The notes beneath the pieces were generated by a model. That model was not told the origin of the DNA and did not search any database. It saw only the letters and a program-made list of their open reading frames with translations. DNA of 64,000 nt from Euonymus europaeus (taxonomy: Eukaryota; Streptophyta; Magnoliopsida; Celastrales; Celastraceae). The translations under genes were made by a program, and so were the position numbers. Below, piece after piece: positions 31,120 through 64,000 of the stretch. The stretch spans positions 16,201,555-16,265,554 of the forward strand of contig OY756963.1 of assembly GCA_963580455.1 (NCBI GenBank), written 5' to 3'. Positions within the stretch are counted from its first letter, which is position 1, and each line of letters starts with the position of its first letter.

Positions 31120-31560
31120 AGGGGAAGAGGCACTACATGACCTATGGGAGCTCTTTGTCGATGGTTCTTCAAACAAGGATGGCAGTGGAGCAGGAATTCT
31201 GCTTCTCGGGCCGGGGGGCTTGAGTACTGAATACGCTCTCCATTTCCAATTCAAAGTTTCCAACAACGAGGCCGAGTACGAAGCACTCCTAGCTGGGTTA
31301 AAGTTGGCAGTTGAACTAGAGGTTCGCAATCTGGTGGTCAACAGCGACTCTCAGTTCGTCACCGAGCAAATTCGTGGCGAGTACGAAGCGAGAGGCTCCA
31401 ACATGATCAAGTATTTGGAGAAAGCCAAGAAACTAATGAGTGAAATCCCGAACGTTGAAATACGGAGAGTGCCCTGAGAAGAGAATCAGCAAGCTGACGT
31501 GCTAGCTCGACTAGCATCGGCCTCTAAAAAAGACAAGGCCTCGTCTGTACGAATAGAGAT
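31120..31560 (+). pseudogene. Second RNase H domain of element 1 (Tat-type dual RNase H)
   Basis: ELFVDGSSNKDGSGAGILLL opens the domain with the first catalytic Asp. NNEAEYEALLAGLKLAVELE carries the catalytic Glu, and VVNSDSQFVTEQIRGEYEAR carries the second Asp. DVLARLAS past the stop at 31475 holds the last acidic residue. A separate second RNase H between the first RNase H and integrase is a known mark of the Tat lineage. The single stop at 31475-31477 fits CGA to TGA. Confidence 0.9.
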
Positions 31561-31564
31561 ATTG

Positions 31565-32849
31565 CCCAAGCCGAGCATCTTCGTTAGGGCTATCATGGAG
31601 ATTAACACGGAACCGTCTTGGATGGATCATATACAAACCTTCCTCACAGATGGAGTGTTACCTGAGGATAAGAACGAGGCTAGAAATCTCCGAGCAAGGG
31701 CAGCGAGGTATTCAGTCATACAAGGAACGTTGTACAGAAGATCTTTCACGCTCCCTTACCTTAAGTGTCTTGCTCAATGGGAGTCCGAGTATGCTCTCCG
31801 AGAAGTGCATGAAGGAGTTTGTGGCAGCCATGCAAGAGTAAGGACCTTAGCTAACAAGGTCTTGCGCTGTGGTTATTATTGGCCGAACATGAGAAAAGAT
31901 GCCGAGGATTTGGTACGTAAGTGCGACAAGTGCCAGAGACATGCTAATATACCACATCTTCCACCATCCGAGATTACTTTTATCGAGAACCCTTGTCCCT
32001 TTGCTCAATGGGGGCTAGACCTGCTGGGACCCTTCCCTTAAGCAACAACTCAAAGGAAGTTTCTTATAGTGACAGTAGATTACTTCACAAAGTGGGTTGA
32101 AGCCGAGTCTCTCGCAACCATCCCCGACCACAAGGTAAAAGACTTCATCTGGAAAACTGTCATCTGTAGGTATGGCATACCTCGGATCCTTATTACAGAT
32201 AATGGTCGACAGTTTGTAAGTGAGAACATCCGAGAATTTTTTGAAGAGCTGGTCATCAATCTAAGAATCACTGCTGTAGCGCATCCTCAAGCTAATGGTC
32301 AGGTTGAAGTAACCAACTGGATCATCCTTCAGGGACTGAAAACTCTTCTAGACCAAGCCCAAGGGGCTTTGGACCGAGCAACTCCACAGCGTCCTCTGGT
32401 CATACAGGACCACGCCAAGAACGTCGACAGGAGAAACGCCTTTCTCTCTAATGTTTGGATCAGAAGCTGTCATTCCAGTGGAGATCGGGGTCCCCACTCC
32501 CCGGATTGTTAACTTCAATGAGTCAGAAAACAATGACTTGCTACTTAACAATCTGGATCTCTTGGAAGAAGCTCGGGAGACTGCTCGGATCAGGACTGCA
32601 GCTTACAAGCAAAGGACAGCTCGTTACCACAACAAGAGAGTCCAAACAAGGAGATTATCTGAGGGAGATTGGGTACTCAGAAAAGCTGCCGCAGCTGGAA
32701 AGCATCTTGGAAAGCTCGAGGAGACTTGGGAAGGCCCTTTTCGGGTTATCAGGGTCATGCTGGATGGAACCTACAAGTTGGAGAATCCCGAGAAACCAGG
32801 AGAGATGCGTCCTTGGAATGCTGAAAACGTCCGAAGATACTACATTTAA
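31565..32849 (+). pseudogene. Integrase of element 1
   Basis: The zinc-binding HHCC is seen as HEGVCGSHARVRTLAN ... CDKCQRH (about 31807-31942). The catalytic core has [26 protein letters not shown] and HPQANGQVEVTN, so all three D-D-E residues are kept. A stop at 32039 (CAA to TAA) and a frameshift near 32368 break it. The C-terminal segment GDWVLRKAAAAGKHLGKLEE ... TWEGPFRVI, with MRPWNAENVRRYYI at the end, is typical. Integrase would insert the cDNA. Confidence 0.92.
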
Positions 32850-33066
32850 CTTTCTTTTGTCGGCATGTATTTAAGAACCCCTTTTAATTTAACTACTCGT
32901 TCCCTACACGGGTCCTAGGACTTTTCTCATTTCAATGAAAGTAGCTCGTTCCCTTATCAAGATTCTCAGTACACTGCTCTGGTACATTACAGCTTATTTG
33001 ATCTGACTTACAATGGCCGAGCACTGTTCCAAGCTTCTCAAATTACAGTGGACGAGAAAAGACTTG

Positions 33067-33174
33067 GGCATGTTACAATTCAATCTCATTGAGTTACAAC
33101 AACCAAGTGAAAACAAGTTGGGTATGTTACAACTCAATCCCATTGAGTTACAACAGCCAAGTGAAAACAAGTTT
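33067..33174 (+). repeat. 54-bp tandem duplication downstream of element 1 pol
   Basis: Two adjacent 54-base copies begin at 33067 and 33121 (GGCATGTTACAATTCAATCT in the first, GGTATGTTACAACTCAATCC in the second), with a few differences. It lies in the non-coding gap between pol and the antisense gene. Confidence 0.9.
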
Positions 33175-33426
33175 GCTACGACCAAGAAAAGTCTAGGCCA
33201 CAACAACTAAGTAGCTGTGCTCGGATCTATTACAATTTAGAATATTTTAAATTACAATATCTGAGCATAAATGAAGACAGATTAATGACAATCACGAAAG
33301 ACGACAAGAAAAAAACTTCATTGATAATTAAGTCATCTACATAGAAAGCAAGGAAACATTTCTAGAATAAGAGGGGAACGATCTAAAAAATTAACTAGTT
33401 CTCTACATCAACTGGCTCCTCGGTGC

Positions 33427-35485
33427 TCAGGCGCTTCTCGGGCTCCTCGCCATGAGCAAGTTCAAGGGGAGCGTTGTCTTCCGTAGGAGCGAGAGGAACA
33501 TCGGTGTCCATATACACCTCGATGTCGTCCTCGTCGTCCCCATCCTCCTGAAGAAGGCGGAACTACTCGTACGCCTTCTCCTTGACAACGTCCACGTCGT
33601 CCTTCCCGGCGAGGCCAGGACACAACTCGTCCATGATCTCCGAGCTCTGACCCTTGCTAGCAAGGAACCTCCGAGCTTCCTTGACAGCAGCCTGGAATCA
33701 GAAAAAGCCCTATTGCTTAAGGGTGAACTAGAATTCCGTGGAGTCCCTGAACTCCTGAAGACCGGATTGGTGACCACTCTCGAACATCCGGGCCCCTTTT
33801 ACTTCAGTGGCCGACCTTTGCTTCTTCAGCTCCTCCTCGGTCTCCTTCAGCTTGGTAGCCAGAAGAGCCTCAGACTCTTGGGCCTTCTCGAGATCCCTCC
33901 GAGAAAGCTGCAATGCCGTCTCAGTCCGACCTAGGGCCCCTTTGAGCAGGTGGATTTCCTAAGCAGCAGTATTCTTCTCGGCCGCCGAGCTCCAGACATC
34001 GATAGAGAGTTTCCTGAGAAGGGAGGCCAGCTAAAAGCAACAATGAAACAAATTATAAAGGAAAACCGAAGAAGAAGATTGACAAAGCTAGGAAAATTCA
34101 ATACCTTCAAAAACTTCACAGCAGAGGCCTCCATTTTTTCCTCGGTAGACATCTCCTCGGTTCACCGCTGATCTGAGGGGAGAGAGTTTCTCAAGCATTT
34201 CCAAGGCCCCTTGAGAGTTGGCCACCGTGTCGGAAAGACGAATGTTCCACTGGGGAGCGTGAATGTTCAGCCTCCCCAGAGGGGCTAGGTTTCACGCGAA
34301 TTCCCCCAGCTTGAACTTTCTTCCTCTTGCTCTGCTCAGCCTCCCCAGAGGGTCCCCTCTTCTGGTGCAAAGCTACCGCCTTTTTCTACATCTTCAAATA
34401 CTCTACAGTCGAAGACATATCTGAAAAATACAGCAACAAGTTAACAAGCAAATTAAGAGACAAAGCAACTACATGGATAAACGGAGCAAGAGCAAGTCCC
34501 CACCTTGCATTGCTCGCTCGGACCTATGTGCCCTTGCAAAGTCTACAGCTCGGCACACGAGGGGTATGGAAGGTTTGGTGAAAGGTTGTTTGAGGGTCAG
34601 ACACCAATCAAGCTCCTCATGAGAAAGTTGAGGCAAACGCTGAAACTTACTGAATTTGGGGAGTGTCCACGATGTCCTAAAACGAAAAACCTCGATCTCA
34701 CCCAAAGGCATCCGAACAAAAAAATAGCTGGATTTCCAATGATGGTTGGAAGAAGAATACTTAGGAGCCACTAGGCCCTTCTTAAGCTTCAAGTAACATA
34801 ACCCAGGGTTCCTCGGTGCTCGGCATAGTGAAAAGATGTGCTGAAGAACATTCGAAGAAAAAGGAACACGGAGCTCGTCACAATAATGGAGTATTGTGCT
34901 GAGGAACACCCAAGAGTTAGAGGCTAAACAGGTAGGGCAGATATCAAACCGAGAAAAGAAGGAACATATTGTCAGAGTCATAGGAATTTGACACCCATAT
35001 GAAAGAGCAGTAGTGGATATGGAAAACTCCCCGTGCTGGGGATTGAAAGGAGAAAACCCCCTCAGACACCGGCTTGTAGGGAAAGGGAATACCGAACAAT
35101 TTGCGTTGAGCTTCCACCTCAGAGGCGGTAAGGCTACAACTTAGGTTTCTAGGCTCCCTAATAGCATCACCTGCTGCTCGGGCTTCCTGTAGGGGAGTCT
35201 CGAACCCAGGAGGGGCGAAGAAGGGGCGTTCTACTAGGGGAAGCCTAAGATTCATCCTAACAGAGGGGAAGTAGAGGTAGATGGAGTAGAACCTAAATCG
35301 GCATTCTCTAACAAATTACCAACACTACTTGAGGAAGGGGAAGACATTTTCTCGTACCTGATAGCGAAGACGAGGACGAGAAATAAATTACGCTCGGTAG
35401 GGGTGAGTTTGTTTGCTCGGTACTCTCTAAGCTCGGGTCTCTCAAATTTGGCAGCAAGTGGTTTTGAAAGCAACGTCTTCACCAT
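33427..35485 (-). pseudogene. Antisense extra gene of element 1, Transposase_28-like, broken
   Basis: Read on the minus strand from about 35485, several frames carry one protein in pieces. There is an N-terminal part (35255-34944) with RKLFGIPFPYKPVSEGVFSF. A middle part (34981-34469) has LASNSWVFLSTILHYCDELR and SSSNHHWKSSYFFVRMPLGE. A coiled-coil C-terminal part (about 33913-33728) has DLEKAQESEALLATKLKETE. The PxQLxPNxWR-like and SSNKGWKxRFFFV-like patterns are those of the plant family listed as 'putative gypsy type transposon' (Transposase_28, PF04195). Frameshifts near 34950 and 35250 break it. The function of this family is unknown. Element 2 carries a relative in the same place. Confidence 0.75.
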
Positions 35486-35705
35486 TTATAGTGGAAGACC
35501 ACCCTGGTCAACGGACCCGATGAAGAGACCTTCGACATCCCCTCATCTGGACCGTTCAGCCTCTGCTCATCGAAAGACCATTGGATCACCTCAGATCTCA
35601 TCATAACCGTTCAAAGTTTCCTTATCAATGCCACCCTCGGGCGAACCAAATGACAGCTAATACAGGCCTATCATTGGTCGTCTATAGCTACCAATCACAT
35701 GCCTG

Positions 35706-35715
35706 AAGGGGCAAA
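35706..35715 (+). promoter_or_regulatory. Purine-rich tract before the 3' LTR of element 1
   Basis: AAGGGGCAAA ends three bases before the 3' LTR start at 35719 and would prime plus-strand DNA synthesis in a working element. Confidence 0.65.
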
Positions 35716-35718
35716 TGA

Positions 35719-36255
35719 TGAGGATATTTATCCTCTCCAATCAGAATAAGACACATGGCAACAGCTGTCAACAGAAGACACCACCTTTCTCGTTGGGAGA
35801 TTCTCGATACCGAGCAATAGAGATGCCCTTCTCGGCTCCGTACCTTCAGGACAGTAACAAGCTCCCAGTAAAATAGTAATTCCTTCATTTGGCAAGGTAT
35901 TATTCACCACCACTCGAATTTTATTAATGGAAACCACCTTCACTATATAAAGGGGTTACCCCACAGGTAAAAAGGATCACTTCTTTTACTACAAAACACT
36001 CTTTACACATTTCCCTAGAACACCGAGCTGTGTTCTTCGGAGAGTCGATCTCTGCTAGCATCTGACTTAAGCATCGGAGCGCCAATGCCAGAGAACACTC
36101 TCTGGCGGGCCTCTAGCTTACGTTTGTTCATTTCTACAGGACAACCTCCACCGAGAAGACTGTCTAGACAAAGAGAAAGATCAGGAAGCCGAGGAATCCC
36201 TTGTTCGGGCCTATACTGATATGTTTTTGTACTTTACAAATTTGAGACGTTATCA
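35719..36255 (+). repeat. 3' LTR of element 1 (537 bp)
   Basis: It is the same length as the 5' LTR, with about 17 substitutions and no gaps. A TATATAA box is at 35944. It ends GAGACGTTATCA and is followed by the target copy ATATA. Confidence 0.97.
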
Positions 36256-36271: not shown

Positions 36272-36914
36272 TAGACCCTAAAATCTACATTCAATAAAAT
36301 GTCAAAAAAGACCATCGACAACTTGATCAATTGTACTATGTTGAACAAAAGAAGGTCACTGGAGTGAGCCTGAGATGATCAAGTCCGATGACGGGGAGAA
36401 GATTTATAGTGAGAGAAGTAAAGAGATTTTTAGAAAGAAAAGTGGAACAAAATAATGATCGAGAGCTTTTAAGAGGCTTGGATTACTTATAAATATAGTG
36501 CTCCTACCCACATGCTTGACACGTGAGTTGTTTATGTTGGCAAGCATTGAGCTTGAGTTGGGCCGTGGGCCTTTGTCTAACTTCGGTTCATACTTGAAGT
36601 GTCTTTTGTATGAGTGACTCAGCCCTGGGCTTTATAGGACTTTGATGGGCACTTGTGGGTCGTGTATGTCGTACAAGCCTCAATGGGCTTAGGTTTTGTT
36701 GGGCCAGGTAGGTTTGTAGTGACGAAAGGGTTGCGTCGGCCTTCAATCTAGTGGGCTCACTAGCCTTATATGTCAAACAAGTTTTGTGGGCCTTGGTTTG
36801 CTGGGCTCACAAGCCTTAATGTGGAAGGGCTACGTGAATCTCAATCCAATGGGCTCACAAGCCTCGTACGCCTTCAAAGTCCAATTCTCAAGAGGTTGAT
36901 TTTTAGCCCATACA
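36272..36914 (-). repeat. Older LTR of the element 2 family, with purine-tract flank
   Basis: TAGACCCTAAAATCTAC at the left end and GCCCATACA at the right end match the LTR ends of element 2, and the whole segment follows that LTR with many changes. It includes the GTTGGGCC and GGGCTCACAAGCC words. The bases after 36914 (CTTTGTGCTCCACTCTTGAA) match the polypurine side of element 2 in reverse. This is therefore the 3' LTR plus a scrap of interior, not a clean solo LTR. The interior is cut off near 36955, where the PIF-type element begins. Confidence 0.8.
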
Positions 36915-41482: not shown

Positions 41483-41487
41483 ACAGT

Positions 41488-42051
41488 TGGTGGGGCTCCG
41501 ACGATCAAGTCAATTCAATAGGGTAAAAAAACGATGATCATAGTAGAGATTGGAAAAATAGGGTAAGTGTTTAGCAAGATCTGATGGTTTGGAAGATGTT
41601 TAGGCTTAGGAGTTTGAGAGAGTTTTGTGGGTAGTTTAGCTCTGGAATTAAATGTATATCCCCCTCTCTAGAGAATGGGAGGACTATTTATCATGGATTG
41701 ACCGAGGAAGGTCCCCTTTGTAAATATAGTAAGATTCTTATGGTCTTTATGGTTGAACTGATGGGGGTTTGACATATGATAGGAGAGAATCTGTGTGAAG
41801 TGATAGTTTCTTTACAAAAAACAAGTCAAAAAGTGAGTTTGAGCTTTATGAAATGTAGAAGCATTAAATGAAAACGAAAAAAGTTCAAACAAAGGGGAGG
41901 GTTACCTCTAGCCTTACGACATGTGTTAGATTGACTGTCGGGTTAAAATAGAAATACCTTTTGACATCGGCGAGCTCCTACTACGACGCCTGGAGGTGAG
42001 CTCTGAACTTGATGAGACAAAGAGTTATTTCTTGCATAAGCTCCAGAAAAC
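41488..42051 (-). repeat. 3' LTR of element 3, truncated
   Basis: It matches the right LTR (from 48937) in order over about 560 bases, for example GTAAGTGTTTAGCAAGATCT and TAGAAGCATTAAATGAAAAC. The match stops at CTTGCATAAGCTC. The following sequence is integrase coding text, so about 130 bases of the LTR are missing. Confidence 0.8.
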
Positions 42052-47130: not shown

Positions 47131-48936
47131 TATCAACAAAAGTCATCACCCCATTGGTATCTGTCGTCATGCAATGTCTCATCCTATAATTCAGGGTTAA
47201 CTACTTAATTGGCATGAAGATAGACTACAAAATGGGGGAATCCATAATTTCTGGATCTCTGCATATTACATGCATGGTTAGAAGCCCTTCAATCTGCTTG
47301 GGGTCTACATCTACACCATTTGCATATACAACATTTTCCTTCTTAATCAATAAATCTCTGAGGTATCTCCTCATTATTAGGTCGATGACCTCTATTCTCA
47401 AGGAGTTGCAATCCACGATATTTTGCCCATGATTTTGATGGTACTCATACCACTTGGATCCATCTGATTTGAGAAATTTTAGCTTGTTTGGCCATGTGAG
47501 TGAATTCCCCATTGCTTTCATTACCACTACATTCTCTTATGGTTCAATGTTGAGGGAGTAATTAATGACTTTTCTTTGAAAGTCAGGTCTTATTCCTCCT
47601 TGCGCATATTTATTTTGCCCATTTTCACATTTCCTATGAGTTGGGTTTTTTCCCTCGTCAGACATACACGTTTCTCTCCTTTGGTGTCATTGCAAACCGC
47701 TTTTTTGAATCTCCTAGGATCGTCCCATCAAATTTGGACAGTGGTGCTTAGAGTGGCATCCTCCATGGTTTGCCAATCATAGTTAGTCATCTCCTCATAT
47801 AGGTGGTATCTAATAATATCCATTCTTGAAAGCTCGTAAGGCCATTTTGGGATTGAAATTGGGAATGGAAACTATTTCCTTGTTATAACATGTGAGATGC
47901 CAACTAAATCTCCCTACTACTCGCAATATATAGAAGAAATGCATTTACAATTTGTGCATAAGTGAAAATGCTGATATTGGGTACACCAATAAACCTTTGA
48001 AGCACTGTTCTAGCGAAGCTTGAAATTAAACCTTTGCACATGCATGCTTCCTTTAGGTGCTAGGGAATAGCAGTGGCGAGTATCTTTTATTTGCGATGGG
48101 CGACATGTTCTCCAGGATCCATCACTCCTTTATATAGTTTCATGGTAGGAAACATAAACCTAGTGGACAGTTCAGCATAAGCTGTATGTTGTATGAAAGG
48201 GAAATCAACGTAATAGGTGGACAAAGTTTTCTTCAATGAAGTTGTCATCCCTAGTATCTTATTCATCATGGCTTCTATTTCATTTAGGTGACGCGTAAAT
48301 TCACTTTCACCATATTCTCCATCGGCGGCCTGGCGCGGAGGAGTGAATAATTGAGGTATGTTCTATTGAGTACTCTCACTGCCTAATTATCTGGCATCCG
48401 TAGGAGACGATGGTGGAGGTGTTTGCTAATGCTGAAAAGTGTCTCTCCTAGGATGAAACAGCTGTGCAAGAAAGAACTTTGAAAGGGAATGTCCTGTCTA
48501 GTTGAAGTTTGGATTGACAATGATGACATTAGAGGAATTGCAACCCTATTGACCCTAATTGGATCTACAATATTTGAAGCTCGCTCCTCGTAATCCCGTT
48601 ATTCTTTGCCTCCATAGACACTAGACGTATAGTATTCTGGTGAAGTTTGTCCCTTATGGCAGCCAACTAACCCATAATCTCAGCTACATAAATTACTGTT
48701 TAAGACATGGTTAGAGAGTTAATATTATGATGTCTTATGTTGTAGAATTATCAGGGCCCATGAAGGGGGCCAAATTATAGATGCCCGAATCTACAATAGC
48801 TAAGTTCCAAAATTCTAGCTTTTATAGGCCACCGATAACCTCCCAAAAGAGTAGAATGATCTTGATCTTGATCCTGTAAGAAGGTCTCCAACAAAAAACC
48901 GTTAGAAGCCCAAATATCGGTTTAGGGGGTACTGAT
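47131..48936 (-). pseudogene. gag: gag remnant and leader of element 3
   Basis: A decayed zinc knuckle, YEYHQNHGQNIVDCNSLRIE, lies at about 47458-47399, with DLIMRRYLRDLL after it. The core region is readable in short blocks only, for example YKGVMDPGEHVAHRK (48131-48087), which corresponds to the 'Y-x-G-x-x-D-P-x-x-H' opening of gag. From about 48300 to 48936 lies non-coding leader. No clear primer-binding site is left next to the LTR. Confidence 0.7.
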
Positions 48937-49621
48937 TGTTAGGGCTTTGATGATATGGTCAGTTCAGTAGGGTGAAAAGACGGTGACTGTGGTAGAGACC
49001 AGTAAAATAGGGTAAGTGTTTAGAAAGATCTTATGGTTTGGAAAGTGTTTAGGCGTAGAATTTGAGAGATTTTTGGGGTAGTTTGACTTTGAAATCAAAT
49101 GTCCATCATCCTCTTTGAAGAAGGAGGGGGCTATTTATAGTGCATGAGTTGATCTAGGAAGGTCCCCTTTGCTAAATCTAGTAAAGTTCTTATGGATTTT
49201 ATGATTGAACTTATGGGTCTGACATATGATAGGAGAGAATTTGTGTGAAGTTATAGTTACTTTATAGAAAGCAAGTCAAAAGGTGTATTTGAGATTTATG
49301 CAATATAGAAGCATTAAATGAAAACAAAAAGTTTAGACAAAAGAGAGGGTTACTTATAGCATAACAACATGAGTCAGATAGACTTTCAAGGTAAAGCAAA
49401 AATATCTTTTGACATTGGTGAGCTCCTACTTTGACGGTTGGAGGCGAGTTCAAACTTGATGAAATGAAGAGTTTTCTCTTGCATAAGCTCTAGTCTCTTT
49501 GATGGCAAGCTCTATTGGGCTTTGGATCTGTTGGGCCTGAGCTCAATTGGACTTTGACTTGGTCAAATAATGATTGGACTTTGAGTTTATTCGAAAAGTG
49601 GGCCAGCCTTATTTCGATCAC
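48937..49621 (-). repeat. 5' LTR of element 3
   Basis: It begins (plus strand) TGTTAGGGCTTTGATGATAT and shows the same word order as 41488-42051. It extends further, through TTGGGCTTTGGATCTGTTGG and AGTGGGCCAGCCTTATTTCG, to a CA at 49621. The outer end is judged only from the CA and the start of unrelated AT-rich DNA. Confidence 0.65.
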
Positions 49622-52440: not shown

Positions 52441-53231
52441 CTAGAGGTTTATGATTTCTTTAAAAATGTAGAATCACATGAGTTCATGAATTAGTTGACA
52501 ATGGCCTAAGCCTTTATTGATACAATATCTCAGAGGAGACTAAAGTGCAGCTGGTAAATGTAAACTTAAAGGGGCTGAAAAAATTTAGTAGTTGAATATC
52601 TATGAGTAATTATACCGCCTTTAACACATGTCAATCACTGATTAGAATATGAGGGAAAAGTTAGGCAAGAAATATCTCCCAAAGAATTATATATATCGAG
52701 CCTTACAATTTCGTGTTTTACTCAGTTTATGTCATGGACATTTGTCAATAGACTAGTATGCCCATAAATTTCATCACCTGAGTGTTCGAAGTGGAGACAC
52801 GGGAGATGGAGAAATAGAACCTTATGCATTTCATTTATGGCCTTAGTGATGATTTGAAGAAGCATATGCTCTACCTACAACTCTCTATCACCAACCTCGA
52901 GGAGGCTCGCCAAATAACCAAAGAAATTGAGACCCAACTCAAGTTCTCATCTTCTCGCGCTTGCACCAACTCTGTGGATACCCGTCCTATTGATGTAAAG
53001 ATCTTTCATACCAAATCTAAAGTGGCTAGCGTCGCGCCCACATGCACAAACAATTGGGAAAATTCTTTGGAGAAGGTGGCTGACGAGAATGGTCCAATGT
53101 GTTATAATAAATGTAATGGCTTGGGAGCATTAAGCTGTTAAGTGCCCCACCAAGAATCAAAAGGTGGCCCTTCTTTTATGAGAAAGATTTGCTGCAGTTA
53201 TCTCTAGAAGGTGATCTTGAGTTGGACCCTC
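52440..53231 (+). pseudogene. gag: gag fragment of element 4 (Ty3/gypsy), cut by element 2
   Basis: Gag text is readable in pieces: MREKLRQ-like and ISSLTISCFTQFMSW near 52650-52740, then MHFIYGLSDDLKKHMLYLQL (52824-) with TNLEEARQITKEIETQLKFS. A knuckle-like segment MCYNKCNGLGALSC ends at about 53141. The text then runs to 53231, where element 2 begins. Several stops are present. The style (short gag, C-x2-C knuckle) differs from the Tat elements and suits a chromovirus-type or related gypsy branch. Confidence 0.7.
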
Positions 53232-53824
53232 TGTAGACCCTAAAATCTACAATCAAAAGAATGTCAAGAATGGGCTGTCGACAATCTGGTTGAACGCACT
53301 GTGTCGAACAAAGAATGAGATTATTTATAGTGAGAAAAGTGAAGAGGTTTCTAGAAAGAGAAGTGGAGCAAGATAATCATCCAGAGAGATTCAAGAGGCT
53401 TGGACTACTCATATTTATAGTGTTCAGGTCATGTGCTTGGCATATGCACTATGCTAGTTGTCAAGTGTGAATCTTGAGTTGGGCCTTGGGCCTTGTTTTT
53501 TAGAGGTGGTTTGTACTTTATACTTAAAGATGACTAGCCTTTGGGCTTTACCGGGTTTGATGGACTCTAATTTTGTGCCGATCAAGCTTATTAAAATGGA
53601 TGGGCTCATAAGCCTTTATGGGCCAACAGGCCTTTACGTCTTGTGGGCTCACAAGCCTGACGAGGGGCTCACAATCCTTGGTGGGCCAACAGGCCTTTAC
53701 GTCATGTGGGCTCACAAGTCTGATAAGGGGCTCACAAGCCTTGGTGGGCCAAAGGCCTTTACGTCTTGTGGGCTCACAAGCCTTGGTAGTACGACTCATA
53801 AGGGTCCGGTTTTTTGCCCATACA
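53232..53824 (-). repeat. 3' LTR of element 2 (593 bp)
   Basis: On the plus strand it runs from TGTAGACCCTAAAATC to TTTTGCCCATACA. The right half holds about 2.7 copies of a 63-bp tandem unit built from GGGCTCACAAGCC and GGCCTTTACGTC words (about 53600-53785). This array makes apparent open frames that are not genes. Confidence 0.96.
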
Positions 53825-53850
53825 GTTTGTCCCCCACTCTCGAAGGTCAA
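53825..53850 (-). promoter_or_regulatory. Purine-rich tract of element 2
   Basis: On the minus strand the bases just before the 3' LTR read CGAGAGTGGGGGACAAAC, a good polypurine tract. Confidence 0.75.
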
Positions 53851-55162
53851 GTTTCTTGACTTTGAGAGTAGAAGTCATATGTTGGTGGCCCGAGGATCTA
53901 TACCACGAGTCGTGCGACAAAATCTGGTTATTTTCATTCATGTATCATATTGATCAACCAAGGTCTTGGCTTGAATCTTTGGTGACCCACGATTCATCGG
54001 GTGGCCTTGTTACATATTTCGAACAAATAATGAGATTTTGTTACAATTGTAATTGTTAGATTTTGTGCTCCGAATTCTGTTAGGTTCGACCCAAAAAATT
54101 CGCGGTGCAACAAATTTGGTGAAGAATTAATTTTGGACCATTTAAAATTCTACTTTCGAACAATTGATGTTGGTTGAATGAAGCTTCTTACAATATAAAT
54201 TTGGAACTAAAAAGCAGTTCTCACGAACTATTGGTCGAACGGGCATAATATCTACTTATTATGTCTGTCGAAGAGAGGCAATATGATCAACGATAAATGT
54301 TTGACTATGTACTTGTTAGTCCCCCACAATGTCCATCTATTGAGAATAGTATTATGTTATTCTAGAGAGTAGATGTCGTATGGTACAACCATAGTTTTAA
54401 ACTGTCCAAGTTATTAGCTTCATGGTGCATTGATGACGTCGTGCGATGCTTTGGTATAGCCATGTGATGTCTTAAGCCATGTTCAAGTGTAGTAACGTAC
54501 GACAAAGCACATAACGTCCAGCAACTCCATGAAAAATTCATACTTCCCAAACTTTATTATGGAGATTTAAATAAATGGCCACGTGTCTATTGCAACTTAG
54601 GCGGCAACTAAAGGGTTGCCCTAAAAACCACTGACCTTTGATTGTGTCAGTCATTATAACTTATTCACCCGAGGTATTTCCTTGTAGAAACCCTAGGCTA
54701 ACCAAGGTGAAACTCGACATAAACCCGTAGTTAATGTGCCTATATTGGAAGAAATTCTCTTTTGCAAACGTAAAGCTGCTCCTTCCCGTACATTGTTCCT
54801 GCTACGATTTTTTGCTTTCTTGAGTTCTTTGTGATCTACCACGTCCTTCTCTAGGTTTTCTACGTATGCTTCGAAATATCAGGTGATTTTTGTCTTCTCT
54901 GGTTTTTCGTTCATAAATCCTTTTGTTTTTTGTTCTTTCTGGCATTTTCGAAAAAGGAGAGATAATTTTCCTTGGTGAAACTCTTCGACCTTGGAAGCTT
55001 GTTGTTATTTCTATGTTTTTCTCCTACTCTCAATGTCTTAGAAAGTTGAAGCTCTCAAGATTTTTTTGCAAAAGATTGATCGGATTCTCATCTCTTTAAC
55101 AAAGGTTTTGAAGTTTTTCCATAACTTTCTGCAAAGAACTTTCTTGTTTGTGATTCCTTGTT
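53851..55162 (+). other. Non-coding spacer of element 2, upstream of the antisense gene
   Basis: This lies between the polypurine tract and the antisense gene, so on the plus strand it is the upstream region of that gene. Pyrimidine-rich text with TTCTTTGTG and TTTTTGTTC stretches at about 54780-55140 resembles a plant 5' leader. I cannot name a promoter element. Confidence 0.45.
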
Positions 55163-57266
55163 ATGGAGGGTTTAGAGAAGCTGCAAGAATCTGATTTGGA
55201 TGATGTCAGAAGAGAGAGGCGGACAAGAAGTGTCGTACAACAACAGTCAGGGTTGGCGTCTAATATTGTAACTCTCATTGGAGAGTATGCCTTTTTAGAT
55301 GAGGAAGAGGAGAATATTGCGCAACTTCCAATAAAAATTATTGCAAGACACAGTCCAACATGCAACCCTTCAGGTATACCATATTCGCATCCGATTGAAC
55401 AATGTGGGCCGAGTAGAGGCGAAGCATTGCCAGTGCGGGGTGATATATGTGTGTCGCACGAAGTAGAAGGGGGTTCTCCAAAGCTCCTCATCAAGAATCC
55501 CAAATCGATCATTCGTGGTAACGAGATTATTGGTTTGAGATATCTCTACAAAATTCCGGACAGCGTTGAAATTCTCTCGACCAAGGTCAATGAGGGAATA
55601 GATAAGGATATTCCAAACTAGGTTGGGATGTACGAACAACCATTTAAGCATGACTTTCGTTTCCCGATTCCACGGTTTGTCAAAGAAGTATTGGGATATT
55701 TTAGGATTGCTCCAAGTCAGTTTATGCCTAACATATGGAGGTTGCTTTTATCAATCTGCGTACAAGTAGAAAAATATGGACGACCTTTGGGCCTTAGAGA
55801 ATTTCTAAATGCGTACTTCATTAGGGAGCACCCTTTTGAAAGTGGTCGATACAGCACCTACCTTCGTTCGACTGAGAAAGAGCATCTGATCTTGAACTTT
55901 ACTTCCAACGATAGAAACTGGAAGAATCGTTATTTTTTCGTACGGAGGGAATTGGTATTCGATCTGGGTGGTCCGATGGGGGTGCCATGGTCATGGAGGA
56001 TGGCTAGTGAGTATTGATATTTCTTTTTCATACTTCAACTTTACTGAGACTCATTTATCTTGTTTTACAGGGCGAGTTGGATTGAAAGCTCCGATCGTAG
56101 CCAACTTGCGAAAAACTATTGCTACCTTTATTGAAGGACCAACAAAGGAGAGGTCGTGGGAGTTTCTTTTGTTAGAGAACAACCTTGTCAGAAGCTCTCT
56201 TTGGTCGTACGTCAAAGGTATAAACGAAGGTATTCCTATACCGAAACTTCAGGATCTTACTATTTTAACGTCCATCAGGTCGTTTGAACTTTTGAAGTTT
56301 GGACTACTGTTTACAAATCCTTTGTCCATTGAAGAACGAGGACTTGCTGACGACGTAATGACAAACCTCAAAGTCATAGATGACCCAACTGCAGCGATCG
56401 AACAGAGGGGGAATTGACTTGCTAGAGCCAAAATGCCAGATGTGCAAGTTGCTCAAGATGTGACCGAAGAGACTGAAGAAGATGTTGGTGTGGAAATCGT
56501 CGAATGACGAGCTTTATTACCTGAGCCAAAGAAGAACAAAAAACGGGGTCGTACCAGAATGGAGGGTTTCGAATTCTCTTTTCCTGAATGGACCTCCGCA
56601 TTTAGTGATGTGGATGAATTTACATCACTGTCGAGCGACATGATTTTTCCAAAGGATAAGAAGCGTTTCTCCGATGCCACACTTGAAAGTGTTGGTAATT
56701 TTGCTGCGCAAAATCTCTTTCAGGTAATCACTATTAATACATATTTATTTATTATTACATATATTTTTTAAATTGTCATTTGACTGAGCTTAGTTCTTTT
56801 CCAGGCATTTGAAGCAATGTTGTCGTTCAAAGATTCTTATAGGTGCCTCAAAGAAGACCACAACAAGCTAAACAATGATCATGTGGAACTTCAAGATGAA
56901 TTGGATATTCTCAAAGAAGCCAAACAACGGGCCAAGGAAATTGCAGATAATTTAAAGGCTGAGTACGAAGTGGTGAAGAAAGAAAAAGAAAAACTTGAGG
57001 GAGAGCTTAAGGATGTTCGTACGGTGAAGAGCAAGGCGGATGAGAAGATCGCTATGTTGGAAGATCGAGTGCAGGAGGTTGCAGATGATGCGATTATTTG
57101 TACATCAGGAAAGTTAATGAAAGAATATAAAGAAGGAAAGCATACCAATTGGGAGGTTGATAAGCGGATTGCTGAATGGGAGGAGTACTTGAAGATGTTG
57201 GAGGAAGACGAAGCAGAGAAAAAGGCTGAGTCTATTGCTAACCTCCAGGATGTTGTAGATCCTTAG
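55163..57266 (+). pseudogene. Antisense extra gene of element 2: spliced, Transposase_28-like with coiled coil
   Basis: It runs on the strand opposite pol. Three exons fit one frame: 55163-56006, 56071-56723 and 56805-57266 (653 codons). Both introns (64 and 81 bp) have GT-AG ends: GTGAGT with TTGTTTTACAG, and GTAATC with TCTTTTCCAG. The N-terminal third is acidic. The middle, with FRFPIPRFVKEVLGYFRIAP SQFMPNIWRLLL and NRNWKNRYFFVRRELVFDLG-like text, resembles the plant 'putative gypsy type transposon' family (Transposase_28, PF04195). The last exon is a long Lys/Glu coiled coil. Three stops (55619, 56415 and 56505) break it. Two of the three are TAG/TGA where a tryptophan would fit, and one fits CGA to TGA. 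Function is unknown for the family. Confidence 0.82.
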
Positions 57267-57470
57267 GTTGCTTTGTTTCCATTTTCCATGACTATCCAGT
57301 TACTTAGAAGAGGGCTTTACATTTTGTCTTTTACATCCGTTCAACATATGTCGTTCGGTCGGCGTAGTAAGATCAACTTTGTTTATTTAATTTCAGTTGT
57401 TTTGTTTTTCCAGCAGCAAGATTTATTTTGTAAAAATCCAAGATTTTAATTATGTCGAAACAACGAAGCT

Positions 57471-58330
57471 TTATTGCATATGTAGTGAAGGCTCGAAGTG
57501 ATATAACTTCAGATGTCTAGCATTCCAACTATTGTTCAACTCTCGCCCGTCTTTTGTTGTCAATTTGTAGGCTCCGCGTCTGACTATGCCCCTAATATAG
57601 TACGGACCTTCCCATGTCGAACCAAACTTCCCAGCTCCGACCTCCTTGGTATTTTCAAAAATGTGTCTCAATACCCAATCACCTACGTGGAAAACTCTGA
57701 CCCTTACATCTTTGTTGTAGTGTCCTGCAAGCTTTTGTTGGTAGGCAGCGGTTTGTACTAGTGTCGCTTCCCTTTTTTCGTCGAGCGTATCCAGGTTATG
57801 ACCTATCTTATGCTCGTTTGACTCGAAATTGATCCACTGACATCTCGCAGATGGTATGTCAACTTCTATCGGAATTACTTCTTCCAAACCATAATCTAGA
57901 GAAAAAGTAGTTTCTCCAGTTGCAGATTTTGCAGTCGTGCGGTAGGACCATAACACCCCGGGGAGTTCATCAGCCCATCGGCCCTTGGCCTTTTCTAGGC
58001 GCTTTTTCAAAATGTTCATTATGGTTTTGTTCGACGATTTTGCCTGTCCGTTACATTGGGGATTATGCGGTGTAGAAAAAATAAGTTTAATCCCATATTT
58101 GTTGCAGAAATTCTGGAAGTCCCTACTTATGAACTGGGAGCCGTTGTCAGTTACTATTTCTTTAGAAATGCCGAACCGACAAATTATGTTCTTCAAAAAA
58201 AATTCTTCACATGTTGATCCTTTATCAATTTAAAGGACTCCGCCTCTACCCACTTAGTAAAATAATCTGTGAGGACCAATACGTATTGGCATTGCCCAGT
58301 ACCAGCTGGCAACTTGCCAACAATGTCCAT
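57471..58330 (-). pseudogene. Integrase core and C-terminus of element 2, catalytic Glu changed
   Basis: The core opens with [14 protein letters not shown] (first Asp, about 58270), then KEIVTDNGSQFISRDFQNFC (second Asp, about 58165-58100). The third motif reads NPQCNGQAKSSNKTIMN, with Lys where the family has Glu (GCA AAA TCG at about 58047-58039). The C-terminal part, with RVFHVGDWVLRHIFENTKEV and FGSTWEGPYYI, is complete and ends LKLYHFEPSLHMQ. A frame break sits near 58200. Without the Glu it should not be able to insert DNA. Confidence 0.9.
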
Positions 58331-59580
58331 CCCCCATCTCATGAAAGGCTAGGGAGTGAGGGTCGGATGTAACTTCTCATACGGAAGATTTGAAACTTGT
58401 GTGAAACGTTGACACTTATCACAAAGACGAACAAAGTTTGTTGCGTCATACCGCATCGTGGGCCAGAAATAGCCCACAGCCAATGCTTTATTGGCCAAAC
58501 TCCTTCCACCGGAATGATTGCCACATTCACCTTCATGAAAATCAGAGAGAACATTCCCACCTTGCGTGGTAGTGACACATCGCAAAAGTGGTCCAGAATA
58601 TGATTTGCGGTACAACTGCCCTTCATAAACAGTGAAACGGGCGGCTACAGCTTTTATTCTTCTGGCTGTATTCTTATCATTCAGGACAGAGCCAGAATCA
58701 ATGTATTTCAATATATCATCCATCCAGCTTTCACTAGCGTTGGTTGTGTAGACTTGAACTAGGGCGTGAAAGATAGCAGGAGACTCCAGATGTACAACAG
58801 GGATAATTTGAGGCTCGTTCGACTGTATTGAGGACCCCAAACTTGCTAAAGCATCGGCTTGTTTATTCTCATTTCTTGGTACTTGGGATATGGTAAACTC
58901 TTTGAACAAACCTTGAAGTTCTTTTGCTAGATCAAGGTATGCAATCATCCTTGTACCCCTTGCCTGGTACGTGCCCAACAATTGGTTAACCACAAGTTGT
59001 GAATCCGAACGAACATTTATCTTCTCAACTTTTAGTTTCATAGCAAAGCTTAAACCTGCAAGTAATGCTTCATACTCTGCTTCATTGTTCGTGGCTCGAA
59101 AACCACAATGAATAGACTGTTGTACAACATGTCCGTCAGGTGATTCCAAAACCACACCAAGACCGCTGCCATGAACATTGTCGGATCTGTCGACCCACAA
59201 GATCCAAAAATCTTTCACAGGTTTTGATATACACAACAACTCCTGCGATATTTGTTTCTCCACTGCCGAAGCAAATTCAGCAACAAAATCCGCTAGCACT
59301 TGAGACTTTAATGTTGTCCAGGGTATATAATGGATGTCATGCTCGCTTAGTTCAACCGCCCATTTGGTTAGTCTTCCGGCCATATCAGCCTTATGAAGGA
59401 CAATTCTCAAGGGAAAAGTGGTGACTACCATTATGGTGTGACACTGAAAGTAAGGTCGCAGTTTTCGTGCAGCAGTAACCAATGCCAAGGCAAGATTTTC
59501 TAGGTGTGAGTAGCGAGTTTCAGCGTCGAGAAGACATTTACTGATGTAGTACACCGAAATTTGGCAGGCCCCATCTTCTC
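58331..59580 (-). pseudogene. RNase H, second RNase H and integrase zinc domain of element 2
   Basis: A single 401-codon frame (59554-58349) is open. It has MYYISKCLLDAETRYSHLEN (RNase H), then LWVDRSDNVHGSGLGVVLES with NNEAEYEALLAGLSFAMKLK and VRSDSQLVVNQLL (second RNase H, acidic residues kept). The integrase zinc domain HEGECGNHSGGRSLANKALA ... CDKCQRFTQ follows. The stop at 58349 lies at a PWPF-like site (TGG to TAG). This is the best-preserved block of the element. Confidence 0.92.
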
Positions 59581-60150
59581 AAACTAGTATCGCACTGACA
59601 GCTGTTTCAGAAACTGCCAAGTACATAAGTAAAGTTACACCATTTTTCAGCTTTGAGAGAAGCGATTCGGACACCAGATACTGCTTGATTTGTTGGAGTG
59701 CTACCTCAGTTTCATCCGTCCATAAGAAATCCTTGGACTTCCCCAATATATCATAGAATTTGTGGCACTTGTCGGATGAACGTGAGATAAACCTGTTCAG
59801 TGCCGCTATCCTCCTTGTTAGCCGCTGCACGTCCTTTCTACATTTAGGTGAAGGGATATTCAGAACTGCACGGATTTGATCAGGATTAGCCTCAATCCCT
59901 CTTTGTTTAGATCGGTAAAATCTATACAAACCCTTCATTTGCCATTTTTCTTTTTTACGACAACAACATTTGCGAGCCAGTCCGGATATTGCACTTCCCG
60001 TACGGAGCCAATGTTGATCAGCTTTTGGATTTCTTCATTAACTATCTGATTGCGATCAGAGGCGAATTTTCTCCTTTTTTGCCGGACGGGTTTATAGCTC
60101 GAATCGACTTGTAACTTGTGAACAGTAATGTCCGGATCGATTCCAGTCAC
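59581..60150 (-). pseudogene. Reverse transcriptase of element 2 with internal deletion of the catalytic core
   Basis: The N-terminal part reads INIGSVREVQYPDWLANVVV then VKKKNGK and, after a TGA in place of Trp, CIDFTDLNK. The next codons are already QRGIEANPDQIRAVLNI, which in relatives lies after the catalytic palm. About 430 bp, compared with element 1, is missing, including the whole YVDD box. The junction is at about 59901-59910 (plus strand CTTTGTTTAG). RNase H text (NRFISRSSDKCHKFYDILGK) then continues. This copy cannot make a working RT. Confidence 0.92.
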
Positions 60151-60444
60151 GTCTTCGTGTCACCAAGCAAAGCAATCCCGATTCTCCATCAAAAATTTGA
60201 TCAACAATGTTCGTATATTAGCATCGAGTCGTGCACCAATATGAACAATCTGATCCGGATGCTCAGGGTGGACTTGGACATCATCCAAATCTTCCATCTC
60301 CGCTTGATTTTGGTCGACCGGTAATGCGGGGCCAAGCGCTGAATCACTGCGCTGTAATTGCTATAAGTTTTTGGTTTTTCCCTTCAAAGCACTAGTTTAG
60401 CAATTACGAGACGCCAGTTGTTCTCCTCTGATTTCTTTAATCCC
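60151..60444 (-). other. Linker between protease and RT, element 2, decayed
   Basis: This stretch joins protease to RT. On the minus strand it has short acidic text with frequent stops. No domain is recognised. Confidence 0.4.
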
Positions 60445-61227
60445 TCATTTCGTCGGGAATTTGATTACCTGATGGTAAGTAGAGGGGACCGCTTTGAGTT
60501 CATGGATCCATGGCCGTCCTAGAATAGCATTGTAGGGAGACGGGCTATCCAAGACGGAGAACGTGGTATTCAAGTTCAACCCCTCACAATATACTTGTAA
60601 GACAATCTCTCCTACGGTATAAGATTGCTCTCCTCCGAAACCTATCAATATGGTCTGTCAACCATAGATATGAGATTCATCAATCTCCATTATCCATAAA
60701 CAGCTCGAGAAAAGTACATTGGTTGAGCTGCCATTATCGACCAGTACCCGTTTAATGTTGAAGTTGGCTATCATTACACATATTACTAAAGCATCATGGT
60801 GCGGATTGAGCAGCTGAGTGGCTTCATTATCAATGAAATTGATAATTTTCCCCGATGGAGTAGATGCTTTAGTCGAACGCAACATAGGATTCCCAGCTTT
60901 CCGTTCGTTCCTTTTTACAGCAGTGTGCGATATTCCACTAATTTCTGAACCGCTGATAATGACTCCAATATTTTTTATTGCTAGAGGGCGTTGGGGTGGC
61001 GTTAGCTCCCTATTTTTTGCAACAGTAGCCTTCCCTTTATCAGACAAAAGGTCTTTGAGATGTCCTCGATTAAGTAGTTCGATCACCTCATCACCCAAGC
61101 CATGACAGTCTCTCGTTAGATGTCCATTGTCCTTGTGAAAGTCACACCATTTCACGCCATCTCTTCTGTCGTACAGAGATCGCATAGGCCTAGGCCACTG
61201 CACTTTGCTTCCCAGCCTTTTCAACAT
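60445..61227 (-). pseudogene. gag zinc knuckle and aspartic protease of element 2
   Basis: The knuckle is seen as CDFHKDNGHLTRDCHGLGDE (about 61143-61084), followed by VIELLNRGHLKDLL. The protease active site is RVLVDNGSSTNVLFSSCLWI (about 60751-60692). After a frame break, TVGEIVLQVYCEGLNLNTTF and SPSPYNAILGRPWIHELKAV (60619-60508) complete it. A stop near 60658 separates the two parts. Confidence 0.88.
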
Positions 61228-62432
61228 AGAAATCAGACGCGCAGGTTCAACATTGAAAATGTACTCAGGTTTTCGTACCCCACGATACGCTGTTCGAGAA
61301 CGATCATACTAGCGGTTATGATCACTCGCTCTTCCCCTTCCACGAATAGTTTGTTCCGGACGAAGATCGTTAAGAGGTTGTTGCTGCAGTGATGGGGTCT
61401 TGTTTCCATCATCTTCCTCTCACTTGACCTGAGCCCACGCTCGTGCCAACGCATCTTCCGTGTTGGCGCACGGAAATTTAGTTAGCTCTTTATATATTTC
61501 ACTACCAGGTATCATGGATTTACGGAAGGCCGACACCACTGTTTCTTCGTTGCAGTTTGGAATTAAAATTTTCTCCGCATTAAACCTTCCCAAATGGGAG
61601 GGCAAAGTTTGACCAATTGTATGCTAGATCTTGTAGAGGTCGTCCGACGATTTCTTTATCCTGCGACTACTGGCGAACTGTTCCACGAACATGTCAAAAA
61701 ATTGGGCAAATGAGAAGATACTATCATTGGGGAGGTTTATGAACCATTGCAATGCCGAACCGGTTAAGCAGCAACCAAACCCCTTGCACATGCATGCCTC
61801 CCTAGCATCTCTTGGGAAAGATATGGTGAGCATCCTCTGACGGTAATAGGCAATGTGGTCGTCCTGATCCGTGGTACCGTTGAAGTACGCCATATTGGGG
61901 AAGCTAAACTTCCTAGGCATCTCAACTATAGAGATCCACTCGACGAAAGGTGTATCAGCGTAACTTTCTGGTTGGCACTTTTTGATTGGGGTTGGAACTC
62001 TGGAAAGCCTTCGGAGGATGCTTCTACCTCCACCAACCTTTGAGAGTGGGACGACTAGGACACGAGCTCGATTCTTTTGGTGGCTGTATTTGGGCCATGT
62101 AGTTTGGGTGGTGGTGGAGTTGACAATATGGGTAAGCTAGAGTCTAGAAGTGTCGAGCGACTGGAACTCTTGCCTGGCGTCATACCACCAAGGTCGGGGA
62201 AATATTTGATGGGATCACCAAACCGCACTTGGGAGATTTGGGGTTGGTTGGCTGTTTGGGATAGTATTTGGCCAATTTTTTTGTGTAGAGAAAGGTTCTC
62301 TACTCGGAATACAACATTCTCGTCCACTAGGATCGAAGAGCGAGCGGAATGCTGATCCATCTGCTCCTTCATAGCTGCAAGCTGGGCAGCAAGATCCTTC
62401 GAATTGTCTGAAGTCATCGAGAAGCTCTTCAC
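61228..62432 (-). pseudogene. gag: gag core of element 2
   Basis: On the minus strand, an N-terminal variable part (62432-62055) is followed by MPRKFSFPNMAYFNGTTDQD DHIAYYRQRM (61920-) and CCLTGSALQWFINLPNDSIF SFAQFFDMFVEQFASSRRIK, the Ty3/gypsy gag core. The frame then stops (61624). It is readable again as MPSHLGRFNAEKILIPNCNE (61605-) and ALARAWAQVK, after which an Arg-rich stretch leads to the knuckle. At least two stops interrupt it. Confidence 0.88.
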
Positions 62433-62464
62433 AATGCAAGTTCGTACCTAAGGTGATTGTCGAG

Positions 62465-62482
62465 GCCCCACGGTGGGCGCCA
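62465..62482 (-). promoter_or_regulatory. Primer-binding site of element 2
   Basis: On the minus strand TGGCGCCCACCGTGGGGC lies three bases (GTT) from the 5' LTR end at 62486, the same spacing as in element 1. Confidence 0.88.
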
Positions 62483-62485
62483 AAC

Positions 62486-63081
62486 TGTAGACCCTAAAAT
62501 CTACAATCAAAAGAATGTCAAGAATGGGTCGTCGACAATCTGATCGAATGCACTGTGTCGAACAAAGGATGAGATGATTTATAGTGAGAGAAGTGAAGAG
62601 GATTTTAGAAAGAGAAGTGGAGCAAGATAATCATCCAGAAAGATTCAAGAGGCTTGGATTACTCATATTTATAGTGTTCAGGTCACGTGATTGGCATATG
62701 CACTATGCTAGTTGTCAAGTGTGAAGCTTGAGTTGGGCCTTGGGCCTTGTTTTGTAAAGGTGGTTTGTACTTTATACTTAAAGATGACTAGCCTTTGGGC
62801 TTTACCGGGTTTGATGGACTCTAATTTTGTGCCGAGCAAGCTTATTAAAATGGATGGGCTCACAAGCCTTTATGGGCCATCGGGCCTTTACGTCTTGTGG
62901 GCTCACAAGCTTCACGTGGGGGATCACAAGCCTTGGTGGGCCAACAGGCCTTTACGTCATGTGGGCTCACAAGCCTGACGAGGGGCTCACAAGCCTTGGT
63001 GGGCCAACAGGCCTTTACGTCTTGTGGGCTCACAAGCCTGACGTAGTACGACTCATAAGTGTACAGTTTTTTGCCCATACA
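62486..63081 (-). repeat. 5' LTR of element 2 (596 bp)
   Basis: It matches the LTR at 53232-53824 throughout, with about 35 differences and a few 1-2 base gaps, mostly in the 63-bp tandem part. The same GGGCTCACAAGCC-based repeats lie at about 62850-63045. Confidence 0.96.
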
Positions 63082-64000
63082 CCCTCCATTTATAAAGAGT
63101 GATTATATGGAGAACTTAAAGGCCTTTCTCCTCCCCAGTTGTGTGATTCGATAGATTCACTAGGCAAATACAGGAAGATGAAGGTATTGACCGTTAGTTG
63201 TGCACCAGCATTTTTCACACTCAAGTAGAGTTTATGCATGATACAATTGATGTGATCATTGGCAGTGATAGTAGAATGAATGTTATCGCAAAATACTTGG
63301 TGAAGTAGCTAAAACTCCCAACGACAAAGCACCTCACACCCTACCACATGAGTTGGGTCAACAAGACATCTATCTTTGTTGCTTCGCAATGCTTGATTTC
63401 CTTCTCCCTGGATAGATATAAGGAGGAGGTATACTGTGATGTCTTACCGATGATGGCATATCAACTCCTTCTAGGCCGCCCAAAGTTATATGACCGCGAT
63501 CTAGTGGATCATATATGGCACAATAAATACTTGAACTTTTTGTTGGATAAGGGGGAGTATAATTATTCCAAACGTTGCAACCTACTATTGTCTCCTCCTC
63601 ACGGCATCATGCCAATTCTCAGGCCACGAGAAGCCCTTCCCGTACCCCTCAAGTCCTTAATATGGCTCAATTTGGGAGGCCTGTAATTAGTCTCAATGGC
63701 GCCTCCTCTTGATTGTCCAACATTATAGTATCAATTTGGAGACTTGTACAACTCAAACCCCTAAAATTGAAGGCACTTTTAGATGAGCATGTTGCCTTGT
63801 TCCTGGAAAATTTACCTGACCACTTACCTCCCATGAGGCCTATCCAACACGTTATAGATCTTGTGCCCGACTGTAATTTGCCAAACCTTCTCTCATACAG
63901 AATGAGTCCCAAGGAACATGATGAATTGAAGAGGCAAGTAGAGGGTTTATTGTAAAAGTTATATTGGAGAGTGAATATCCCTCTTGAGAGTGACTCTCAA
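63082..64000 (+). pseudogene. Protease and start of RT of element 4, right of the element 2 insertion
   Basis: Across broken frames this reads as a gypsy aspartic-protease region. SWVNKTSIFVASQCLISFSL and EEVYCDVLPMMAYQLLLGRP with KLYDRDLVDH (63348-63540) match the protease C-terminal part and linker. It continues with NLPDHLPPMRPIQHVIDLVP and NLLSYRMSPKEHDELKRQVE (63806-63945), the segment just before the RT palm. The wording 'HxIDLVPG...YRMSPKE' is typical of chromovirus-type and related Ty3/gypsy pol. The window ends before the palm. At 63082 the sequence resumes exactly after the CCCTC target copy. Confidence 0.85.

Follow-up and report, generated by a model that had tools for sequence, protein, structure and literature searches.

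According to the relevant passages of a 2025 review (PMC12786077), plant LTR retrotransposons generally lack introns, Ogre and EVADE being among the exceptions. In the corresponding sections of Neumann 2019 (PMC6317226), the pol order RNase H, second RNase H-like domain, and integrase is that of Ogre and Retand elements, and an archaeal-type second RNase H between RNase H and integrase is a Retand criterion common to Ogre. Antisense open reading frames (ORFs) of the Transposase_28 type (TRP28, PF04195) occur in 97% of Retand clusters, as stated in the survey sections of Vicient 2025 (PMC11963269). The parts of the two surveys that describe their searches report antisense ORFs called without splicing, at a minimum of 250 codons (PMC6317226) or 600 bp, with shorter ORFs accepted for TRP28 (PMC11963269). 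For the maize element Grande, passages of a further review (PMC7264820) report a promoter upstream of gene23 and a nuclear protein product. This 2020 review asks that antisense and spliced transcripts be examined, and the word "intron" is absent from its main text and from the main-text portions of PMC11963269. Outside plants, HBZ of HTLV-1 is described in passages of PMC3185765 as a nuclear protein with an N-terminal activation domain and a C-terminal zipper.

This study analyzed a window of 64,000 nucleotides from Euonymus europaeus (contig OY756963.1, positions 16,201,555 to 16,265,554 of the forward strand), which carries an intron-bearing gene on the strand opposite gag-pol of a retrotransposon. 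We consider it highly probable that this locus is a decayed copy of a Retand antisense accessory gene that is truly spliced in its lineage and whose introns are kept through retrotransposition of the sense strand.

Results

The gene lies in element 2, a complete but old Ty3/gypsy LTR retrotransposon that occupies 53232-63081 on the minus strand. Its 3' LTR (53232-53824) and 5' LTR (62486-63081) are 93.8% identical over 597 columns and have TG...CA ends, and the target-site duplication CCCTC flanks the element on both sides (53227-53231 and 63082-63086). A polypurine tract (GAGAGTGGGGGACAAAC on the minus strand, 53825-53841), whose function is assigned by position only, adjoins the 3' LTR, and the primer binding site region was read from the sequence at 62466-62485 (TGGCGCCCACCGTGGGG on the minus strand). 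Domain searches identified, all on the minus strand, a gag fragment (Retrotrans_gag, E 2.6e-6) at 61624-62136, a pol part at 58349-59578, and the C-terminal part of integrase (rve, PF00665, E 1.9e-11) at 57471-58229. The pol part is a single ORF with RT_RNaseH at 8-79, the second RNase H-like domain RVT_3 at 137-246, and the integrase zinc finger Integrase_H2C2 at 342-392.

We read RVT_3 as the archaeal-type RNase H domain, and element 2 thus has the second RNase H before integrase that is used to recognize Retand. It also has an antisense Transposase_28-type ORF between pol and the 3' LTR, with a domain score below the Pfam gathering score. Because of this pol domain order and the antisense gene between integrase and the 3' LTR, element 2 fits the Retand lineage (Ty3/gypsy, OTA/Tat). 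The 5-bp target duplication and the TG...CA ends are common to many plant LTR elements, and the LTR identity of 93.8% places element 2 outside the identical-LTR class that Vicient 2025 regards as potentially recently active. Tandem units of approximately 63 bp were seen within the LTRs of element 2 (53602-53786 and 62856-63104). Elsewhere in the window, a third direct-repeat pair (41487-42046 and 48936-49493; 79.6% identity, approximately 7.4 kb apart) looks like an older LTR pair.

A first-pass annotation had described a gene of three exons and two small GT-AG introns, located opposite gag-pol between integrase and the 3' LTR. Our analysis confirmed this layout: the gene is on the plus strand and converges with the integrase ORF on the minus strand, from which its stop is separated by 204 bp. 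Exon 1 (55163-56006), exon 2 (56071-56723), and exon 3 (56805-57266, ending in a terminal TAG) sum to 1959 nt, a multiple of three. Intron 1 (56007-56070; 64 bp, phase 1, GTGAGT...TTTTACAG) was placed by the sequence, spliced alignment, and copies in the same genome; a branch-site-like block, ACTGAGACTCAT, begins 28 nt before its end. Intron 2 (56724-56804; 81 bp, phase 0, GTAATC...TTTTCCAG) was placed by the sequence and spliced alignment, and its position recurs in relatives. A motif scan of the region upstream of the gene (53842-55162, plus strand) returned TATAAAT at 54194 and CACGTG at 54580, which are motif matches only; the promoter and 5' leader presumably lie in this region or in the LTR.

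The claim that a single frame is kept from 55163 to 57266 proved wrong. The joined exons contain three premature in-frame stops, namely TAG at 55619-55621 in exon 1 and TGA at 56415-56417 and 56505-56507 in exon 2. The window copy of the antisense gene is dead, a decayed pseudogene. Under neutral decay since insertion, the LTR divergence predicts 2.0-2.75 new stops in the coding length, compared with the 3 observed. Because the expected count is close to the observed one, it is quite possible that element 2 inserted with an intact gene.

The earlier description of the product mostly holds. Residues 1-100 of the exon 1 translation contain 17 D+E and 10 K+R, which makes the N-terminus mildly acidic, and a Transposase_28-like stretch follows; exon 2 encodes a small helical part and a linker; and exon 3 is coiled-coil-like, with a HALZ domain match of 28.5 bits. 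The Transposase_28-like stretch scored below the Pfam cut-off for PF04195 (26.2 bits), reaching 23.7 bits (E 5.7e-5) for the piece after the first stop. When the joined exons were compared with PF04195, exon 1 with X at the stop scored 21.8 bits, again too low for membership. Among relatives in other plants, P0029 (47.3), P0025 (39.6), P0022 (34.9), and P0015 (27.7) passed the cut-off, and P0006 (25.3), P0017 (24.3), and P0001 (22.5) missed it. The structure model of P0001, a hop protein (mean pLDDT 65, pTM 0.44), is confident at residues approximately 100-260, just before the intron-1 site, and over most of one long helix (477-589) that starts near the intron-2 site. Set against the intron sites, these confident regions suggest that the introns roughly mark domain borders. 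Fold searches yielded no confident relative.

The joined window translation, with X at the stops, matched P0001 best (E 9.6e-62, 84% of the query). Because of this match, the antisense coding structure is, judged from its sequence, more than chance. We aligned proteins of other plants to the window with all GT..AG pairs of 50-400 bp permitted as introns. Donor 56007 was chosen in every spliced alignment that used an intron at the intron-1 site; the intron ended at 56076 with P0001, P0005, and P0006 and at 56070 with Xanthoceras P0017 and the hop paralogue P0016, and the alignment of P0015 reached only 55963. Intron 2 was returned as 56724-56804 with P0001, P0005, and P0016 and, from the common donor, as 56724-56867 with P0017. 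Permitting introns raised the score from 481 to 517 for P0001, from 391 to 455 for P0017, and from 354 to 442 for P0016. P0005, P0017, and P0016 opened an additional GT-AG gap within exon 2 (56373-56525 or 56309-56557), which we took for an indel; the gains of P0017 and P0016 derive partly from this gap because it opened in both of their alignments.

A dinucleotide control tried all 256 pairs as splice signals in four local tests. Three of these had 6, 6, and 5 pairs that outscored GT-AG and 7, 4, and 11 that equaled it; no intron was used in the fourth. Protein alignments by themselves locate the insertions with a precision no better than a few bases, and the result of this control meant that the canonical ends had to be judged from relatives. 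The hop isoforms used for comparison are database gene models. P0001, P0002, P0003, and P0005 differ by 41 residues within exon 2 and have alternative N-termini, a pattern that alternative splicing and an upstream intron would produce.

A wider search returned 49 proteins, many of which are located on small ENA contigs and appear to be unspliced ORFs; P0020 and P0021, NCBI-annotated Xanthoceras proteins, both run into the intron. An interruption at the intron-1 site was observed in 13 proteins (P0018, P0020, P0021, P0025, P0028, P0030, P0032, P0035, P0036, P0037, P0039, P0041, and P0043). It takes the form of an in-frame insertion in P0025 and P0037, and in the other 11 the homology starts or stops within two residues of the site. 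The reading frame of hop-like, Xanthoceras, and oak-like elements thus breaks at one common codon, the intron-1 site. P0001-P0013 and five further reference proteins were omitted from this comparison; the other rows stop short of the site or begin beyond it, carry a frameshift, or are annotated gene models that do not reveal their splicing; and the site in two oak references was placed by hand, from reading their relatives.

An intron-blind alignment placed the intron-1 site in columns 352-355 for 16 of 18 rows; in the outlying P0020 and P0037, the indexed residue is the first intron residue, shifted by the aligner. P0018 matches P0001 solely over residues 268-484, the part encoded by exon 2, and its tail is exon 3 out of frame, differing at 3 of 24 positions (shuffled minimum 46%). 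Applied to P0032 and P0043, this test gave 5 mismatches in 24 (shuffled minimum 41%) and 2 in 18 (38%), respectively, and the result for P0039 was not significant.

Within the 443-Mb host assembly, there are at least 146 matches to the exon-1 domain (150 scored of 569 candidates). From these and 20 exon-3 matches, 57 stretches (L009-L065) were drawn and analyzed together with the window; many weak or stop-rich matches were omitted, and L062-L065 were selected for their long ORFs. Splice-site positions were predicted by homology alone, and the number of testable copies, which includes the window, varies because homology must reach the junction. These copies are related to one another, and neither the splice-site counts nor the dN/dS pairs given below are independent.

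Donor 1 was GT in 28 of 49 testable copies (mean 3.0 at 60 neighboring offsets), acceptor 1 was AG in 16 of 17 (mean 0.7), donor 2 was GT in 18 of 24 (mean 1.1), and acceptor 2 was AG in all 13 (mean 0.5), each mean being taken over 60 such offsets. The highest donor-1 neighbor, offset +4 with 30 copies, is the second GT of GTGAGT or GTAAGT. GTRAGT was present in 25 of the 28 donor-1 matches, the rest being L037 (GTGAAT), L058 (GTAACA), and L015, which was artefactually mapped at the acceptor. Twelve of the 21 misses have GT three bases later (L046-L055 and L059 of one subfamily, plus L057); nine of these shifted donors are GTRAGT, and L047-L049 have GTAAAC or GTAAGC. Because of the donor-1 GTs and the 12 donors three bases on, a phase-1 intron within one codon is predicted to be common to three subfamilies. 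Of the other donor-1 misses, L062-L065 are intronless, L022 was mapped at the acceptor, L043 was mis-mapped, and the donor seems to have been lost from L024, L045, and L056. The six donor-2 misses include the window, L024, and L031, all mapped at the acceptor, and L010, with the same GCATTT there. The first-pass annotation would have been undermined by splice sites that are not conserved in related copies; the sites recur at the same place and in the same phase.

Intron length and the branch-site-like block were measured in part of the copies, the others having no donor or no YAG. Intron 1 was 64-70 nt, not a multiple of three, in 16 copies measured in one set, and intron 2 was 67-113 nt, not a multiple of three in 11 copies. 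Multiples of three were window intron 2 (81), five family-B introns (66), and the intron of L023 (69). A stop lies within 15 codons of the intron-1 site in those 66-nt family-B copies and in L023, and the unspliced frame is therefore closed in them too. A block resembling ACTGAGACTTAT begins 27-30 nt upstream of the intron end, with no more than two mismatches, in 14 of 16 family-A and 5 of 5 family-B copies, a count that is descriptive, the pattern having been picked by eye from these introns. The two family-A exceptions are L035, with 3 mismatches, and L011, which has the block and a misassigned intron end. The block was found in none of the 8 family-C copies measured (4-5 mismatches). In L037, the sequence approximately 100 bases past the donor-1 site looks unrelated, and no YAG acceptor occurs 55-100 nt after the donor, possibly through truncation or a nested insertion.

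Scanning of the 58 stretches revealed integrase on the strand opposite the antisense gene in all 36 in which it was found; it was found in no family-B stretch. The best integrase match was to the element 1 piece in the intronless family and to the element 2 piece in the other families. Element 1 (approximately 26991-36255, plus strand) has LTRs of 96.8% identity and an antisense Transposase_28-like ORF at 34469-35140 on the minus strand (PF04195 E 9.7e-4, 19.8 bits, below the cut-off). This ORF aligns to Abeliophyllum P0050 (136-313) through the intron-1 site without an intron. Family D and element 1 lack intron 1, the ORFs of L062-L065 reach 474-522 aa, and a small tree set element 1 apart from the intron-bearing rows with weak support. 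Relatives that stay open through the introns, which the first-pass annotation had named as evidence against itself, therefore exist at the intron-1 site, and they form a separate subfamily (element 1 and L062-L065). The introns are thus not universal, and splicing is not needed in every lineage.

Three further features were observed in and around element 1. Its antisense ORF has a likely frameshift near 35066, and an ORF at 33728-33958 on the minus strand was judged by eye to be coiled-coil-like. Directly beside the element, 36272-36573 contains stretches 75-79% identical to the element 2 LTR and is apparently a related LTR remnant.

We estimated dN/dS by the Nei-Gojobori method and dropped pairs with dS outside 0.05-1.2 or with fewer than 60 codons. 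Median dN/dS of the exon-1 domain was 0.35, 0.12, 0.10, and 0.07 in families A-D (29, 23, 17, and 5 pairs). The median for exon 2 was 0.48 in family A (32 pairs), and that for exon 3 was 0.21 in family A (32 pairs) and 0.26 in family B (20 pairs). The control, read one base out of frame, gave 0.54-1.58, the lowest value being that of exon 3 in family B (11 pairs); owing to the dS filter, the test and the control use different pair sets. The exons look to be under purifying selection. For the window and its three closest copies, dN/dS was 0.36, 0.36, and 0.52 against controls of 0.66, 0.65, and 0.48, and this weak or absent contrast is as expected for recent neutral decay.

Discussion

The recurring splice sites and phase and the apparent selection on the exons give good support to the core of the first-pass annotation, in which the element carries an antisense gene with introns as it moves. 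At the level of DNA, this reading draws on the place of the gene in a full LTR element, its exon-intron structure, the recurrence of its splice sites and phase, a signature consistent with purifying selection, and its decay. We infer that the antisense RNA is made and spliced in vivo. Host RNA polymerase II would transcribe the gene from the strand opposite gag-pol, and the host spliceosome would take the two short introns out of the antisense RNA. Exon 1 would then supply a Transposase_28-like globular domain, exon 2 a linker, and exon 3 a coiled coil, and, by analogy with Grande gene23 and HBZ, the product would regulate the element as a nuclear protein that associates with itself and probably binds DNA. 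Reverse transcription uses the sense genomic RNA, in which the introns appear as CT...AC. From the sequence and the known life cycle it follows that they are copied intact and inherited; the introns would survive since the strand that retrotransposes is not the one that is spliced.

The antisense unit could alternatively act mainly as RNA, with double-stranded RNA formed with the genomic RNA tuning silencing or retrotransposition and any protein being secondary. The convergence of the gene with pol, 204 bp from the integrase ORF, agrees with such a role, which the review PMC7264820 raises for antisense transcripts of such elements, and Ty1 antisense RNA is cited in passages of PMC12786077. However, median dN/dS lies under the frame control in every exon tested and the protein is conserved across genera, both of which point to a protein product, and we regard a mainly RNA-based function as unlikely.

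Capture of a host gene by one element, or a host gene near element insertions, would account for introns and a separate promoter, which are typical of host genes, and the hop copies are annotated as ordinary loci. The abundance of the gene speaks against this explanation, with at least 146 exon-1 domain matches (150 scored of 569 candidates), as does the opposite-strand integrase in 36 of 36 stretches where it was found (of 58); moreover, sections of PMC11963269 report the antisense ORF for all but two of 63 Retand clusters. A host origin of this kind is very improbable. We give still less credence to apparent introns that are insertions into, or decay of, a single old copy and are never spliced. 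The window gene is a three-stop pseudogene, GT-AG ends in one sequence could arise by chance, and the dinucleotide control alone is weak, but many copies and other genera have the same site, phase, and canonical ends, with variable length and sequence between them.

For the spliced Retand antisense gene that we favor, a more tentative account of its history can be given, one that we consider possible rather than probable. The gene may have entered a Retand ancestor at the DNA level with its introns, which were then kept as working parts, and the TRP28 and Smc/Mis12-like ORFs would be exons of one gene. Splicing could serve as a strand check, in which only host-made, host-spliced nuclear antisense RNA, never the packaged sense RNA, would yield protein. 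With entry at the DNA level, retention may span the divergence of the hop, oak-like, and Xanthoceras elements and the host of the window; horizontal transfer may be an alternative. The recurrent intron set argues against entry as a processed mRNA and offers a marker that could be looked for among DNA transposons and host genes. Should the gene be spliced, ORF surveys may undercount it, split "TRP28" from "Smc" ORFs, and misjudge its length. The recurring introns and apparent selection suggest that a gene with introns can pass through the RNA copying cycle of plant retrotransposons.

Comparison with known systems

The closest counterparts are the Retand TRP28 ORFs, which, in the survey sections of PMC11963269, are likewise antisense, lie between pol and the 3' LTR, and have a Transposase_28-type domain; the same sections report further antisense ORFs in this region with Smc, Mis12, and similar matches. 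Those ORFs are ORF Finder calls (at least 600 bp, with shorter ones also considered for TRP28), whereas the domain ORF and the coiled-coil ORF are here exons of one gene. Within the literature searched, what is new is that introns are present, that they recur, and that the domain ORF and the coiled-coil ORF are joined. Grande gene23 (2013) is similarly an antisense accessory gene in a long 3' region, as described in PMC7264820, and differs in that the passages of that review on Grande mention no intron.

HBZ, in the passages of PMC3185765 on its transcripts, is also spliced, antisense, and located in the 3' part of its retroelement. HBZ transcription begins in the LTR, where exon 1 of the main spliced form supplies the start codon, whereas both introns of the window gene are located in the internal region. 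The likeness is one of organization, with no sequence relation claimed, and the regulator features are here a mild acidity and a coiled coil. The Ogre intron (in passages of PMC6317226) and the EVADE intron (in passages of PMC12786077) are likewise introns in plant LTR retrotransposons. Those introns serve expression of the element's sense RNA, whereas splicing of the genomic RNA does not threaten the introns of the window gene, which lie on the antisense strand.
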